Shown piece by piece: positions 4,912-51,458 of a stretch of 53,452 bases of DNA. Position 1 is the stretch's first letter. Every line of letters begins with the position of its first letter. Source of the DNA: Opitutus sp. GTDB taxonomy: Bacteria > Verrucomicrobiota > Verrucomicrobiia > Opitutales > Opitutaceae. A program made the translations under genes and the position numbers. The notes under the pieces were generated by a model. It had not been told where the DNA came from and did no database searches. It worked only from the letters and a program-made list of their open reading frames with translations. The stretch covers positions 1 through 53,452 of the forward strand of contig PNJQ01000016.1 of the NCBI GenBank assembly GCA_013821985.1. Reading direction: 5' to 3'.

Positions 4912-5005
4912 GCGGGCTGCGAGAATCGACCGGCGTCCGATTGCGTGGGGAGGCTCGCAATCGATGATAATTTCCGCGGCCGCCGCGTGTTTCGCACGTT
5001 GTTCA

Positions 5006-5030
5006 TCGCCTGCAAGCAGGCTCCTACAAA
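5006..5030. repeat. GTAGGAGCCTGC repeat, single arm
   Basis: One arm (reading ATCGCCTGC AAGCAGGCTC CTACAA) of the repeat found in full at 744-807. No opposing arm is seen nearby. It lies in the spacer after the RidA gene. Confidence 0.85.
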
Positions 5031-26637: not shown

Positions 26638-26654
26638 GCGAAGCGGGGGGACGG

Positions 26655-26741
26655 TTGGAGGAGCCTGCTGGCCGGCGATAAGGAAATTCGCAGCGCCTGC
26701 CTCCCGCGAAGATCAGGCATCGCCTGCCAGCAGGCTCCTAC
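26655..26741. repeat. GTAGGAGCCTGC palindromic repeat, diverged pair
   Basis: Arms GGAGGAGCCTGCTGGCCGGC (from 26657) and GCCTGCCAGCAGGCTCCTAC (26722-26741) oppose each other across about 45 nt, in the spacer between the response regulator and the membrane protein genes. It belongs to the family at 744-807 with a CTGGC/GCCAG change matched in both arms. Confidence 0.82.
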
Positions 26742-26785
26742 GAATGCGCGGCCATCCATTGCCCCCACTCTGCAAATCGTGGCGC

Positions 26786-28990: not shown

Positions 28991-29070
28991 TTTGTAGGAG
29001 CCTGCTCGCAGGCGATAAGCACCGTCGCACCGCGCACGCCAATCATCGCCTGTAAACAGGCTCCTACAAA
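28991..29070. repeat. GTAGGAGCCTGC palindromic repeat, paired copy
   Basis: Arms at 28991-29016 and 29045-29070 (TTTGTAGGAGCCTGCTCGCA and its partner CTGTAAACAGGCTCCTACAA) enclose 28 nt. It lies between the YdeI-like gene and the small EamA-like gene. Confidence 0.88.
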
Positions 29071-33630: not shown

Positions 33631-33777
33631 CCCTCGCCGCGGTGAAACGTGAAATGCGGCGAGGGCACCGCGTCCCAACAGAGAGCCTTTCAGTTTTTCT
33701 GTCGCCGGGCTCTCTGAGCCCGGTCGGCGTTTCTTCGCTCGGCGAGGGCCCTCCCGGGGTCAGCGACTCCGGCTACA
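33631..33777. repeat. Composite of two spacer palindromes
   Basis: 33631-33665 has CCCTCGCCGC facing GCGGCGAGGG. 33701-33777, read on the - strand, gives TTGTAGCCGGAGTCGCTGAC CCCGGG..., then CGGGCTCAGAGAGCCCGG: the same family as the coding elements in sucB (43191) and lpd (44652), with an extra ~27 nt in the middle. The 269-nt gap 33584-33852 holds nothing else I can support. Confidence 0.72.
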
Positions 33778-42890: not shown

Positions 42891-42916
42891 AATGTAGGAG
42901 CCTGCTTGCAGGCGAT
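42891..42916. repeat. GTAGGAGCCTGC repeat, single arm, in sucA-sucB spacer
   Basis: AATGTAGGAGCCTGCTTGCA then GGCGAT, one arm of the 744-807 family, begins 4 nt after the sucA stop codon and before sucB. Confidence 0.85.
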
Positions 42917-42950: not shown

Positions 42951-44174
42951 ATGGCTATCGAAGTCAAAATCCCCCCGATGGGTGAATCCATCTCCTCCGG
43001 CGTTCTCGCCAAATGGCATGTCGCCAACGGCGCCGTCGTGAAGAAGGACCAAGTCCTCTTCGAACTCGAAACGGACAAGATCACGTCCGAAGGCACCGCC
43101 GAAGCCGCCGGCAAGATCACCTTCGCCGTCGAAGCCGGCACCGAAGTCAAAATCGGCCAGGTCGTCGCCACGATCGACCCCGCCGCTGCTGTAGCCGGGG
43201 TCGCTGACCCCGGCCCGGGCTCAACGAGCCCGGCTACAACCGCATCCGCCGCAGCCAAGTCCGACGCCCTGTCCCCCGCCGTCCGCCGCCTCGCCGCCGA
43301 AACCGGCATCGACCCCGCCAGCGTCGAAGGCACCGGCAAAGCCGGCCGCGTCACCAAGGGCGACATGCTTTCCTCCGAGGTAGGGCGCGCTGTCCCTAGT
43401 GCGCCGTCCGCACCTGCCCCTTCGCCTTCGGCGCAGCCGAAGGACGAACCGCGCCGTAGCTCGCCGAGCGAAGGCGGGCGCCAATCGCGCACGAAGATGA
43501 CCAAGCTCCGCCAGACGATCGCAAACCGTCTCGTCCAGGCGCAGCACAACGCGGCGATGCTCACGACCTTCAACGAGGCCGACATGTCCGCCATCATGGG
43601 CCTGCGCGCGAAATACCAGGATGAGTTCGTGAAGAAAAACGGCGTGAAGCTCGGCTTCATGTCCTTCTTCGTGAAAGCCGTCGTCAACGCGCTCAAGGAA
43701 GTCCCCGGCATCAACGCCCAGATCGACGGCGACCACATCATCAACAATCACTACTTCGACATCGGCGTCGCCGTCTCGACCGACAAGGGCCTCATGGTTC
43801 CGGTCATCCGCGACTGCGACAAGAAGAGCATGGCCGAAATCGAGAAGGACATCGCCGACGCCGCCAAGCGCGCCCGCGACGGCAAGATCACGCTCGCCGA
43901 TCTCGAAGGCGGCGTCTTCACGATCACGAACGGCGGCGTCTTCGGTTCGCTCCTCGCGACACCGATCATCAACGCCCCGCAGAGCGCCATTCTCGGCATG
44001 CACGCTATCAAGGAGCGCCCGATGGCCGTCAACGGCCAGGTCGTCATCCGCCCGATGATGTATCTCGCCCTCAGCTATGACCACCGTCTCGTGGACGGCA
44101 AGGAGTCGGTCACCTTCCTCGTGTCGGTGAAGAACAGCCTCGAAGATCCCGCGCGCCTGGTCCTCGGAGCCTAA
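42951..44174 (+). CDS. sucB: Dihydrolipoyllysine succinyltransferase (2-oxoglutarate dehydrogenase E2)
   Basis: A 407-aa E2: lipoyl domain 1-77 with lipoyl-Lys43 ([10 protein letters not shown]), E3-binding domain about 107-141 ([14 protein letters not shown] ... GRVTKGDML), and a C-terminal catalytic domain with SYDHRLVDG (HxxxDG). It transfers succinyl to CoA. Linker 1 contains residues 81-97 ([17 protein letters not shown]), encoded by a complete palindromic element at 43191-43241. Linker 2 (about 143-181) includes two further repeat-like stretches (43383-43405; 43452-43476). All keep the frame and lie in flexible linkers, so the enzyme should still function. ATG 42951 starts the conserved lipoyl domain. 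Confidence 0.96.
43191..43241 (+). repeat. Palindromic element translated within sucB
   Basis: Two side-by-side hairpins, GGGGTCGCTGACCCC (43197-43211) and GGGCTCAACGAGCCC (43217-43231), are closed by outer arms GTAGCCGGG (43191-43199) and CCCGGCTAC (43229-43237), which overlap the hairpin ends. It is in frame and encodes 17 residues of the E2 linker. The same element, in the same phase, is in lpd at 44652. Confidence 0.92.
43452..43476 (+). repeat. CGCCGTAGC...AAGGCG palindrome translated within sucB linker 2
   Basis: CGCCGTAGCTCG C CGAGCGAAGGCG, an imperfect palindrome with matching CGCC/GGCG and CTCG/CGAG arms. A related palindrome lies in a spacer at 45731-45756. It is translated as part of RRSSPSEGG in the E2 linker. 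Confidence 0.65.
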
Positions 44175-44185
44175 CCAAACTACGA

Positions 44186-44265
44186 CACAGAGGACACGGA
44201 GAACCACAGAGAAGCACTGAACAAAACCTCTGTGCCCTCTGTGAATCTCTTCCGACCTCTGTGAC
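44186..44265. repeat. ACAGAGGACAC / CCTCTGTG inverted repeat in the sucB-lpd spacer
   Basis: ACACAGAGGACACGG (from 44186) faces CCTCTGTGCCCTCTGTG (44227-44243), with a further CCTCTGTGA copy near 44256. It fills most of the 99-nt gap between sucB and lpd; it differs in sequence from the GC-rich families. Confidence 0.75.
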
Positions 44266-44273
44266 TTCCTCTC

Positions 44274-45695
44274 ATGTCTTCTCCATCCTTTGATCTCATC
44301 GTCATTGGCGCCGGCCCCGGCGGCTACGTGTGCGCGTTCCGCGCCGCGCAACTCGGCCTGAAGGTCGCGCTCGTCGATAAACGCGCCGCCCTCGGCGGCA
44401 CTTGCCTCAACGTTGGCTGCATCCCGAGCAAGGCGCTCCTCCACGCCACCGAGCACGTCGCGTGGGCCAAGAATCACGCCGCCGATTCCGGCATCAAATT
44501 CGGCAGCGTCGAAGTCGACCTCGCGCAGCTGATGAAGAAAAAAGACGCCGTCGTCGCCAAACTCACCGGCGGCGTCGCGATGCTGGCGAAAGGCCGCAAG
44601 GTCACCGTCTTCAACGGCACCGCCTCGTTCACCTCGCCCACGGAAGTTTCTGTAGCCGGGGTCGCCGACCCCGGCCCGGGCTCGGCGAGCCCGGCGACAA
44701 CCACGCGCCTCACCGCGAAACACTTCGTCATCGCCACCGGCTCCACGCCCGTCGAGTTGCCGTTCATGAAGTTCGACGGCGAGACGATCGTCTCGAGCGA
44801 CCATGCCATCGCCTTCAAAGAAGTGCCGAAGAAACTCGTCGTGGTCGGCGGCGGCGTCATCGGCGTCGAACTCGGATCCGTCTGGGCGCGCCTCGGCGCG
44901 GAAGTCACCGTCGTCGAGTTTCTCCCGAAAATTATCGCGACCTTTGACGACGACATCGTCCGCCAGTTCACACGCCTGATGCAGAAGCAGGGCCTCAAGA
45001 TCGAAGTCGGCGCGAAGGTCACCGGATATGCCAACGGTATCCTCACTGCCGAACGCGAAGGCACCAAGCTCGAGATTCCCGCCGACAAAGTCCTCGTCGC
45101 CGTCGGCCGCCGTCCGTTCACCGACGGACTCGGCCTCGATCAAGCCGGCGTCGAACTCGACGAAAAGAAACGCGTCAAAGTCGATGCCCATCTCCGCACC
45201 AACGTCGCCCACATCTGGGCGATCGGCGACGTCGTTGCCGGCCCGATGCTCGCGCACAAAGCCGAGGAAGACGGTGTCGCCGTCGCTGAGTGGATCGCCG
45301 GCAAAGCCGGCCACATCAATTGGGACCTCGTTCCTGGCATCGTTTACACGAACCCCGAAGTCGCCTCCGTCGGCCTCGGTGAAGATGACGCGAAGAAGCG
45401 CGGCCTCGCGATCAACGTCGGCAAATTCAACTTCGCCGCCAACGGCCGCGCGATTGCCGCGGATGCGACCGACGGCTTTGTGAAAATCATCGCCGACGCG
45501 AAGACGGACAAAATTCTCGGCGCGCAAATCCTCGGCCACAACGCCGGCGAGCTCATCAGCGAAGTCGTCACGCACATGGAATACGGCGGCAGCGCCGAAG
45601 ACCTCGGCCGCACCATCCACGGCCACCCCACGATGAGCGAAGCCGTCAAGGAGGCCGCCCTCGCGGTCTCGAAATCGGCGATTCACGCCCTGTGA
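44274..45695 (+). CDS. lpd: Dihydrolipoyl dehydrogenase (E3)
   Basis: A 473-aa flavoprotein reoxidising dihydrolipoamide with NAD+. FAD motif IGAGPGGYVC (11-20), redox disulfide C44-x4-C49 (GGTCLNVGCIPSK), NAD motif VVGGGVIGVELGSVW, and the C-terminal His451/Glu456 pair (HPTMSEA). Residues 127-143 ([17 protein letters not shown]) are encoded by the same palindromic element as in sucB, inserted in an FAD-domain loop just before LTAKHFVIATGS; ordinary Lpd proteins have a short turn here. The loop is likely surface-exposed, so activity is probably kept. Third gene of the operon. Confidence 0.97.
   Translation: MSSPSFDLIVIGAGPGGYVCAFRAAQLGLKVALVDKRAALGGTCLNVGCIPSKALLHATEHVAWAKNHAADSGIKFGSVEVDLAQLMKKKDAVVAKLTGGVAMLAKGRKVTVFNGTASFTSPTEVSVAGVADPGPGSASPATTTRLTAKHFVIATGSTPVELPFMKFDGETIVSSDHAIAFKEVPKKLVVVGGGVIGVELGSVWARLGAEVTVVEFLPKIIATFDDDIVRQFTRLMQKQGLKIEVGAKVTGYANGILTAEREGTKLEIPADKVLVAVGRRPFTDGLGLDQAGVELDEKKRVKVDAHLRTNVAHIWAIGDVVAGPMLAHKAEEDGVAVAEWIAGKAGHINWDLVPGIVYTNPEVASVGLGEDDAKKRGLAINVGKFNFAANGRAIAADATDGFVKIIADAKTDKILGAQILGHNAGELISEVVTHMEYGGSAEDLGRTIHGHPTMSEAVKEAALAVSKSAIHAL
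44652..44702 (+). repeat. Palindromic element translated within lpd
   Basis: GTAGCCGGGGTCGCCGACCC then CGGCCCGGGCTCGGCGAGCC and CGGCGACAACC: the same double-hairpin as 43191-43241 with few substitutions, same strand, same codon phase. It encodes 17 residues identical to the sucB insert except Thr to Ala at position 12. Confidence 0.92.
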
Positions 45696-46848: not shown

Positions 46849-46911
46849 GTAGCGGCGAGCGCGGAGCGAGCCGACGACGACAGCAACGGGTCGCTGGCGC
46901 TCCCCGCTACC
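46849..46911. repeat. GTAGCGGCGAGCGC...GCGCTCCCCGCTAC element, copy 1
   Basis: Imperfect palindrome with outer parts GCGGCGAGCGCGGAGCGAGC and GGTCGCTGGCGCTCCCCGC. Both outer parts occur as reverse complements at 51393-51458. It lies between the EamA gene and the HAD gene. Confidence 0.78.
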
Positions 46912-48991: not shown

Positions 48992-49078
48992 TTTGTAGGA
49001 GCCTGCTTGCAGGCGATAAAAACGTGCGCCGGAGGGAAAACCGGTGTTCGAAGTCGCCTGTAAAAAGGCTCTTACATT
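48992..49078. repeat. GTAGGAGCCTGC palindromic repeat, paired copy
   Basis: Arms at 48992-49017 (TTTGTAGGAGCCTGCTTGCA...) and 49054-49078 (TCGCCTGTAAAAAGGCTCTT ACA), the second diverged. It is just upstream of the marR gene. Confidence 0.85.
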
Positions 49079-50586: not shown

Positions 50587-50654
50587 GGTGGGAGGGGCTT
50601 TACGCCCCGACGATCAGCGACCGTCCAATGTCGGGGCATAAAGCCCCTCCCACC
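50587..50654. repeat. GGTGGGAGGGGC / GCCCCTCCCACC inverted repeat
   Basis: Arms 50587-50610 (GGTGGGAGGGGCTTTACGCC...) and 50631-50654 match except for two positions, with a 20-nt loop, right after the dioxygenase. It might terminate or stabilise the transcript before the hydrolase gene. Confidence 0.85.
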
Positions 50655-51372: not shown

Positions 51373-51392
51373 TTTGGTGCGCCTTACGCTTC

Positions 51393-51458
51393 GGCTCGCT
51401 CCGCGCTCGCCGCTCCATCGATCGTGCGCTCCTTCGCCGCGGGGAGCGCCAGCGACCC
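51393..51458. repeat. GCGGCGAGCGC element, copy 2
   Basis: GGCTCGCTCCGCGCTCGCCG (from 51393) and GCGGGGAGCGCCAGCGACCC (51439-51458) are reverse complements of the two halves of the element at 46849-46911, but in the same order. It is in the gap before the aldo-keto reductase gene. Confidence 0.75.

Follow-up and report, generated by a model that had tools for sequence, protein, structure and literature searches.

A GTAG-tagged palindromic doublet read in frame in the adjacent sucB and lpd genes of an Opitutus genome

A short palindromic element is translated in frame in two adjacent genes, sucB and lpd, on contig PNJQ01000016.1 of Opitutus sp. (assembly GCA_013821985.1), whose 53,452 nucleotides are hereafter called the window. 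The data make it very probable that the two copies represent a GTAG-tagged repetitive extragenic palindromic (REP) doublet of the REPIN type (REP doublet forming hairpins), that is, a non-autonomous repeat of the Opitutaceae, probably mobilised by a REP-associated tyrosine transposase (RAYT), which is kept where it is read without stop codons in permissive loops.

Specifically, each window copy consists of two 23-nt palindromes in inverted orientation separated by one base, giving a unit of 47 bp, preceded by T and followed by A (49 bp if these outer bases are included). An earlier note on this DNA had described near-identical elements at 43191 and 44652, lying on one strand and in one codon phase; these positions were confirmed, and the 53-nt segments 43189-43241 and 44650-44702 share 92% identity. 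The length of 51 nt given there has to be revised, as it corresponds to 17 codons inclusive of flanking bases. Both copies start on a codon boundary, with GTA read as a codon, and encode 16-17 residues, namely codons 81-97 of sucB and 127-143 of lpd, counted from the ATG codons at 42951 and 44274. In the lpd copy the outer CTAC of the B arm has become CGAC, leaving GTAG on one side only. The proposed placement in the E2 linker and in an E3 loop of the flavin adenine dinucleotide (FAD) domain also holds. The SucB orthologue of the nearest relative carries lipoyl (18-89), E3-binding (122-152) and acyltransferase domains in Pfam, and the element occupies residues 95-110, between the first two; the lpd copy falls within the FAD-domain region, in a loop where the solved E3 homologue 3urh_A shows 9 gapped residues. 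The double hairpins that had been proposed describe well the sucB copy, whose DNA folds into two hairpins (-21.3 kcal/mol, z -5.6). They are one of two possible folds for the lpd copy, whose best fold is a single long hairpin in which the arms pair together (-24.7, z -5.4). Table 1 reports the coordinates.

Table 1. Coordinates of the sucB and lpd genes, of the REP doublets within them and of a long-form doublet
Feature	Coordinates	Strand	Remarks
sucB, 2-oxoacid dehydrogenase E2 (dihydrolipoyl acyltransferase)	42951..44174	+	open reading frame (ORF); domains assigned through the G001 orthologue
REP doublet in sucB, 47 bp	43191..43237	+	A arm 43191-43213, inverted B arm 43215-43237, spacer 1 nt, phase 0
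lpd, dihydrolipoyl dehydrogenase E3	44274..45695	+	ORF; PDB E3 matches, best E 1.3e-147
REP doublet in lpd, 47 bp	44652..44698	+	A arm 44652-44674, inverted B arm 44676-44698, phase 0
REP doublet, 76-bp long form	33701..33776	-	between two convergent genes (locus L029)

A further sequence in the second sucB linker, 43380-43396 (GTAGGGCGCGCTGTCCC), was considered as a dispersed repeat and rejected, having in its own genome 1 exact and 3 two-mismatch matches vs 1 for the control. Together with its flanks it translates as EVGRAVP, and a similar peptide is found at the same place of sucB in G007.

The genome of the window (G000; a 3.74-Mb assembly in 117 contigs, with an estimated completeness of 79%, in which the window is contig C16) contains 24 exact matches to the 23-nt arm GTAGCCGGGGTCGNNGACCCCGG. 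Allowing up to 3 mismatches, the arm was found 97 times vs once for a reversed control, partner arms, and some sites read on both strands, being part of this number; the abundance of the arm is far above chance. With at most 1 mismatch, we counted 43 arms in G000, 51 in its congener and nearest relative G001, 78 in G015 (another genus; 5,957,605 bp in one contig), 14 in G022 and 1-7 in seven other genomes, and no copy in 27 of the 38 genomes searched. The relatives named by lpd belong to the Opitutaceae and neighbouring groups, with Candidatus Didemnitutus as the closest. The copies display the features of GTAG REPs, with a short palindrome that carries GTAG, unpaired, on one side, and those of REPINs, with REPs arranged as inverted doublets, single arms occurring as well. 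A T precedes the doublet in 132 of 141 cases and an A follows it in 137 (two duplicate rows included). The idea of a dispersed short element with a tolerated translated frame is supported.

The position of each copy relative to genes was assessed, after removal of duplicates, using a purpose-built seven-state codon hidden Markov model rather than a standard annotator; the model was trained on loci of G000, G001 and G015 and seeded with sucB and lpd from ten relatives. Copies at gene edges (37 of the 170 in these three genomes) were counted neither as in-gene nor as intergenic. On this basis, the 43 copies of G000 comprise 8 in genes, 28 intergenic and 7 at edges, the 49 units of G001 (from its 51 arms) 29, 11 and 9, and the 78 copies of G015 20, 37 and 21, respectively. 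The mainly extragenic location that goes with GTAG REPs is seen to a varying extent, the intergenic share being lowest in G001. In G000, 25 of the 28 intergenic copies are doublets of 72-79 bp and 6 of the 8 in-gene copies are compact 47-bp doublets. Defining compact doublets as those of up to 55 bp and long ones as those of 70 bp or more, G000 and G001 together have 30 compact doublets in genes vs none between genes, and no long doublet in genes vs 35 between them (Fisher 3e-19). Outside this test are, in genes, 3 intermediate copies and 4 with a single arm, between genes a further 4 with a single arm and, at edges, 9 long, 2 compact, 2 intermediate and 3 single ones. The flanks of the long doublets in these two genomes tend to be A/T-rich. 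In G156, from another sampled genus, compact doublets number 5 in genes and 9 between genes, long ones 0 and 4.

As for the reading phase, in-gene copies of the three genomes fall in phase 0 in 56 of 57 cases. The replicate genera G156, G133 and G086, picked since their RAYT is flanked by the studied palindrome, gave 9 of 46 copies in genes (6 at edges), 9/9 of them in phase 0. The phase bias that the earlier note expected is thus strong; however, it is mostly forced, because the consensus arm has stop codons in the other two phases, TAG closing one and TGA the remaining one. Among the copies open in at least two phases, 28 of 29 are in phase 0 (P ~1e-8), in a test that is partly circular; since a second phase may be opened by synonymous substitution once the element is in place, this gives weak support for a choice on the level of the peptide. 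Copies occur on either strand: over the six genomes, the A arm of the in-gene copies lies on the coding strand in 46 cases and on the opposite strand in 20. Doublet spans of 1 modulo 3 occur in 0 of 57 in-gene doublets vs 22 of 76 intergenic ones, while 48 in-gene spans are 2 modulo 3 and 9 are 0 modulo 3. These classes are compatible with a need for upkeep of the gene frame, with no single fixed length.

The hosts are real genes, because 47 of the 49 proteins scanned have a Pfam match. The 49 derive from 59 in-gene rows, leaving aside the 4 sucB and lpd rows of G000, whose G001 orthologues were scanned instead, and 6 second copies in the same protein. Most hosts are housekeeping proteins. Many copies lie between domains, as in the pyruvate dehydrogenase E2 linker, the joint of a SpoU methylase, the linkers of CobW and YjeF, the ABC-F region ahead of the C-terminal domain and the joint of PurK; others are within domains, in a carboxyltransferase, a monomeric isocitrate dehydrogenase (IDH), AcrB and E3. 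The in-frame insertion in conserved genes that characterises Rickettsia palindromic elements (RPEs) is found here as well. Most sucB and lpd orthologues do not have the residues of the element, which indicates that it is an insert, as judged from the alignments. Its place is taken in many relatives by other fillers, as seen for lpd, sucB and PurL. In L041, L094, L095, L149, L154 and others, the lpd loop and the sucB linkers repeatedly contain IENxxSKIENP-type fillers, which resemble another translated repeat.

The comparison of orthologues had been suggested in the earlier note, where the same residues in distant species would have spoken against an insertion; neither this condition nor the one on phase bias refuted the idea, with the carriers named next as a qualification. 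Along with the many orthologues that do not carry the peptide, several do: G001 has the element at the same places in both sucB and lpd, G015 has it at the same lpd codon and has another in the other sucB linker, and the lpd loci L099 and L160 carry it too. On an lpd tree of 83 rows, built by a quick method, the 5 carriers of the REP peptide, L099 and L160 included, do not group together and need 5 changes, at least 4 of which are forced by well-supported branches; 3 rows with the IEN-type filler need 3 changes. On a SpoU tree of 24 rows, the 4 carriers (G000, G001, G015 and G156) need 4 changes, with a range of 4-4 in bootstrap trees, and an identical short joint recurs in 17 of the 20 rows that lack the element. 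The SpoU doublets differ in length between genera (47, 50 and 56 bp, with different spacers).

Further shared sites emerged from peptides compared by eye: 4 of the 7 in-gene copies of G156 (PurL, SpoU, IDH and CobW) match sites of G001, G015 likewise has copies in the SpoU joint and in the CobW linker, and a second PurL site is common to G001 and G015. The orientation, also judged by eye, is opposite to the gene at the SpoU site in all four carriers and forward at the PurL, CobW, IDH, WD40 and lpd sites; the YjeF copies of G001 and G015 differ in orientation. To judge from these alignments, the Lpd, SpoU, PurL, CobW and IDH loops look like recurrent landing sites. This recurrence may exceed what a small number of permissive loops would yield. 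Taking the forms and the sites together, it is possible, and we put it forward tentatively, that the family has an in-gene form (the compact doublet, either a coding fossil preserved by translation or a gene-adapted version) and that a few enzyme loops (Lpd, SpoU, PurL, CobW and IDH) have been refilled independently, by REPs or other repeats, across genera.

Concerning the agent of mobility, a RAYT gene of the Y1 type with the studied palindrome on both sides is present, outside the window, in the related genomes G001 (contig C4), G015, G086 and G156, and, as this bracketing suggests, the RAYT is probably what mobilises the doublet. Of the two routes considered in the earlier note, replication slippage and a REP-type transposase encoded outside the window, the latter fits better with these bracketed genes. 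Relatives of the RAYT (E of at most 1e-20) were detected in 61 of 200 sampled genomes of the family. Around 30 RAYT loci of the subfamily, 4 of them cut by contig ends, GTAG palindromes with a perfect stem were found within 400 nt on both sides in 18 cases, on one side in 5 and on neither in 7, counts taken without a shuffled control; allowing one stem mismatch, a looser test also without control, the figures become 21, 7 and 2. In G022, scored as neither, the RAYT is flanked on each side by a copy of the studied arm with one mismatch. The palindromes that bracket the RAYT differ between lineages. On contig C29 of G000, the locus L031 contains an ORF (1358-2449) for a Y1-type transposase of 333 aa. 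It is bounded by inverted ends of another sequence (GGGTCAGGCTTTGTAGTTTG), and a long REP doublet of the studied family lies about 75 bp away.

The scenario that we favour would run as follows. The doublet would be moved by the RAYT in the form of a single-stranded DNA hairpin. Insertions would be scattered, and those that break genes would be purged by selection, so that survivors would be read in the sole phase free of stops and would sit in exposed linkers and loops, where a peptide rich in Gly, Pro, Ala and Ser would do little harm. The adjacent sucB and lpd genes would share the element because both the linker of E2 and the loop of E3 are permissive places.

Several observations weigh against this interpretation. 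The comparison of lpd, sucB, PurL and SpoU orthologues demonstrated no target-site duplication, no precise empty site and no transposition event, nor a clean addition of 51 nt; in SpoU the insert nets +45 nt, vs 47-49 for the unit. In G015 no split between forms is seen (compact 15 in genes and 23 intergenic, long 2 and 1; Fisher 0.56), the compact form being as common outside genes. No close RAYT was found at E 1e-20 in the 79% complete assembly of G000, in spite of its 43 arms, which may reflect the incompleteness of the assembly or a loss of the RAYT; the RAYT of locus L031 was rejected as the cognate mobiliser, as its terminal repeats are its own and different. Conversely, among the genomes searched for the arm, 5 of the 12 with a RAYT relative (G004, G005, G014, G019 and G020) have no arm, which may be explained by lineage-specific palindromes.

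A different history for the shared sites, possible but doubtful, is that the element inserted once into lpd, spoU, purL and cobW in an early ancestor of the Opitutaceae and was then lost or overwritten in most lineages. The agreement in orientation at most sites shared across genera, the identical codon register in lpd and the fact that strong branches of the SpoU tree force only 1 change all favour it over repeated capture, and excision of REP doublets has been seen in sequencing reads of Pseudomonas in what is accessible of PMC3116915. It is opposed by the number of changes on the lpd and SpoU trees, by SpoU spacers that differ between genera and by the unrelated fillers of the same loops, which imply that repeated capture occurs anyway. 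Shared ancestry with repeated loss may still account for some of the shared loops, which also tells against our interpretation. Identity of site and, for the most part, of orientation between genera would equally follow from homologous exchange, whereby element-bearing segments of lpd, sucB or spoU recombine between Opitutaceae and copy one insertion; outside the loop, however, the SpoU and Lpd proteins of the carriers group with those of non-carriers, and around the SpoU element the flanking nucleotides are not the same in G015, G156 and G000, which makes such an exchange very unlikely.

It is also unlikely that the translated peptide is functional, for instance as a selected linker or an interaction tag. 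Among the same-strand in-gene copies of G000 and G001, 14 of 24 depart from the family consensus at the third base of the Ala codon, vs 5 of 39 among the intergenic ones, and the sucB and lpd copies of the two genomes differ, by eye, by 4 synonymous and 2 non-synonymous changes. The shift in the third base is consistent with synonymous adjustment and thus indicates translation rather than function; moreover, G015 shows no such difference (5/16 vs 12/37), and most orthologues do without the peptide. We claim no function for it. Finally, E2 linkers are Ala/Pro-rich by nature, and the residues might have arisen with no insert at all, as a convergent low-complexity Ala/Gly/Pro linker in a GC-rich genome. 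This explanation is refuted by the presence of a nearly identical palindrome of 47 nt both in genes that are unrelated and in intergenic DNA, by the 24 exact arms vs at most 1 control match and by fold z values below -5 for both window copies, and we give it practically no credit. In conclusion, a REP doublet probably mobilised by a RAYT and retained in permissive loops remains the interpretation that we prefer.

Other repeats were observed in the window. A second family of GTAG palindromes (TGTAGGAGCCTGCTTGCAGGCGAT), partly arranged as inverted pairs, occurs at 744-807, 5005-5028, 26654-26743, 28991-29070, 42892-42915 and 48992-49019, and one copy of this family sits between sucA and sucB. 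An inverted pair with 25-nt arms (GGTGGGAGGGGCTTTACGCCCCGAC), 96% complementary, lies at 50587-50654, and a perfect 24-nt inverted repeat (AGCGGCGAGCGCGGAGCGAGCCGA) connects 46851-46874 with 51391-51414, 4.5 kb apart.

The element belongs to an already known kind, since in-gene GTAG REPs were published in 2013: the text available of Di Nocera et al. 2013 (PMC3733652) describes GTAG REPs lying in frame in genes of Opitutus terrae, insertions considered possibly neutral since they are located in linkers or loops. It also describes GTAG-17 dimers, arranged head-to-head with 1-2 bp between partners, and GTAG repeats flanking RAYT genes, with uvrA and DNA ligase among the host genes. The doublet studied here resembles them in its GTAG tag, in the spacing of its dimers and in its flanking of RAYT genes, and uvrA and DNA ligase are hosts in G015 too; it is therefore probably of the GTAG-17 family, a number that we assign from the description in the text and not from a consensus. 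In contrast to the present data, the part of that report at hand mentions neither a single reading phase nor a compact/long split, and it gives one shared site, REPs at about the same position of recB in two Xanthomonas species, sites being otherwise different, whereas here several loops are common to different genera. In the open-licence literature on REPIN/RAYT systems, Rickettsia in-frame palindromes, Opitutaceae, intragenic REPs and palindromes in protein evolution, we found nothing nearer, and neither the compact/long split seen in two genomes nor the repeated occupation of particular loops in different genera was found in print there. Free-living bacteria here offer a ready-made comparison between conserved enzymes that carry the tag and orthologues without it, with copies at the same loops in several genera.

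Among other systems, the accessible account of Coxiella QMITE2 (PMC5896051) likewise places a GTAG REP in a repeated element that lies close to the ends of genes or overlaps them; that element adds C-terminal residues and a stop, and internal in-frame linkers are not noted in that account. The RPEs, with which the earlier note drew its parallel, are alike in kind, being short palindromes in frame in genes according to the summary in PMC3733652, while the in-gene GTAG REPs of Opitutus terrae are the nearer precedent; as stated in the same summary, RPE-4 and RPE-6 belong to the CGTC superfamily and have no known dedicated transposase, whereas the tag of the studied element is GTAG and not of the CGTC type. 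The question raised for Rickettsia, whether palindromic repeats build new protein segments, becomes testable here by comparison and by simple enzyme assays. With REPINs (Bertels and Rainey 2011, PMC3116915) the element shares the inverted REP doublets, the hairpins and the association with RAYTs. As far as the available text of that work goes, REPINs were studied extragenically, whereas 29 of the 49 copies of G001 lie inside genes, a warning that palindromes called extragenic may be mainly genic.

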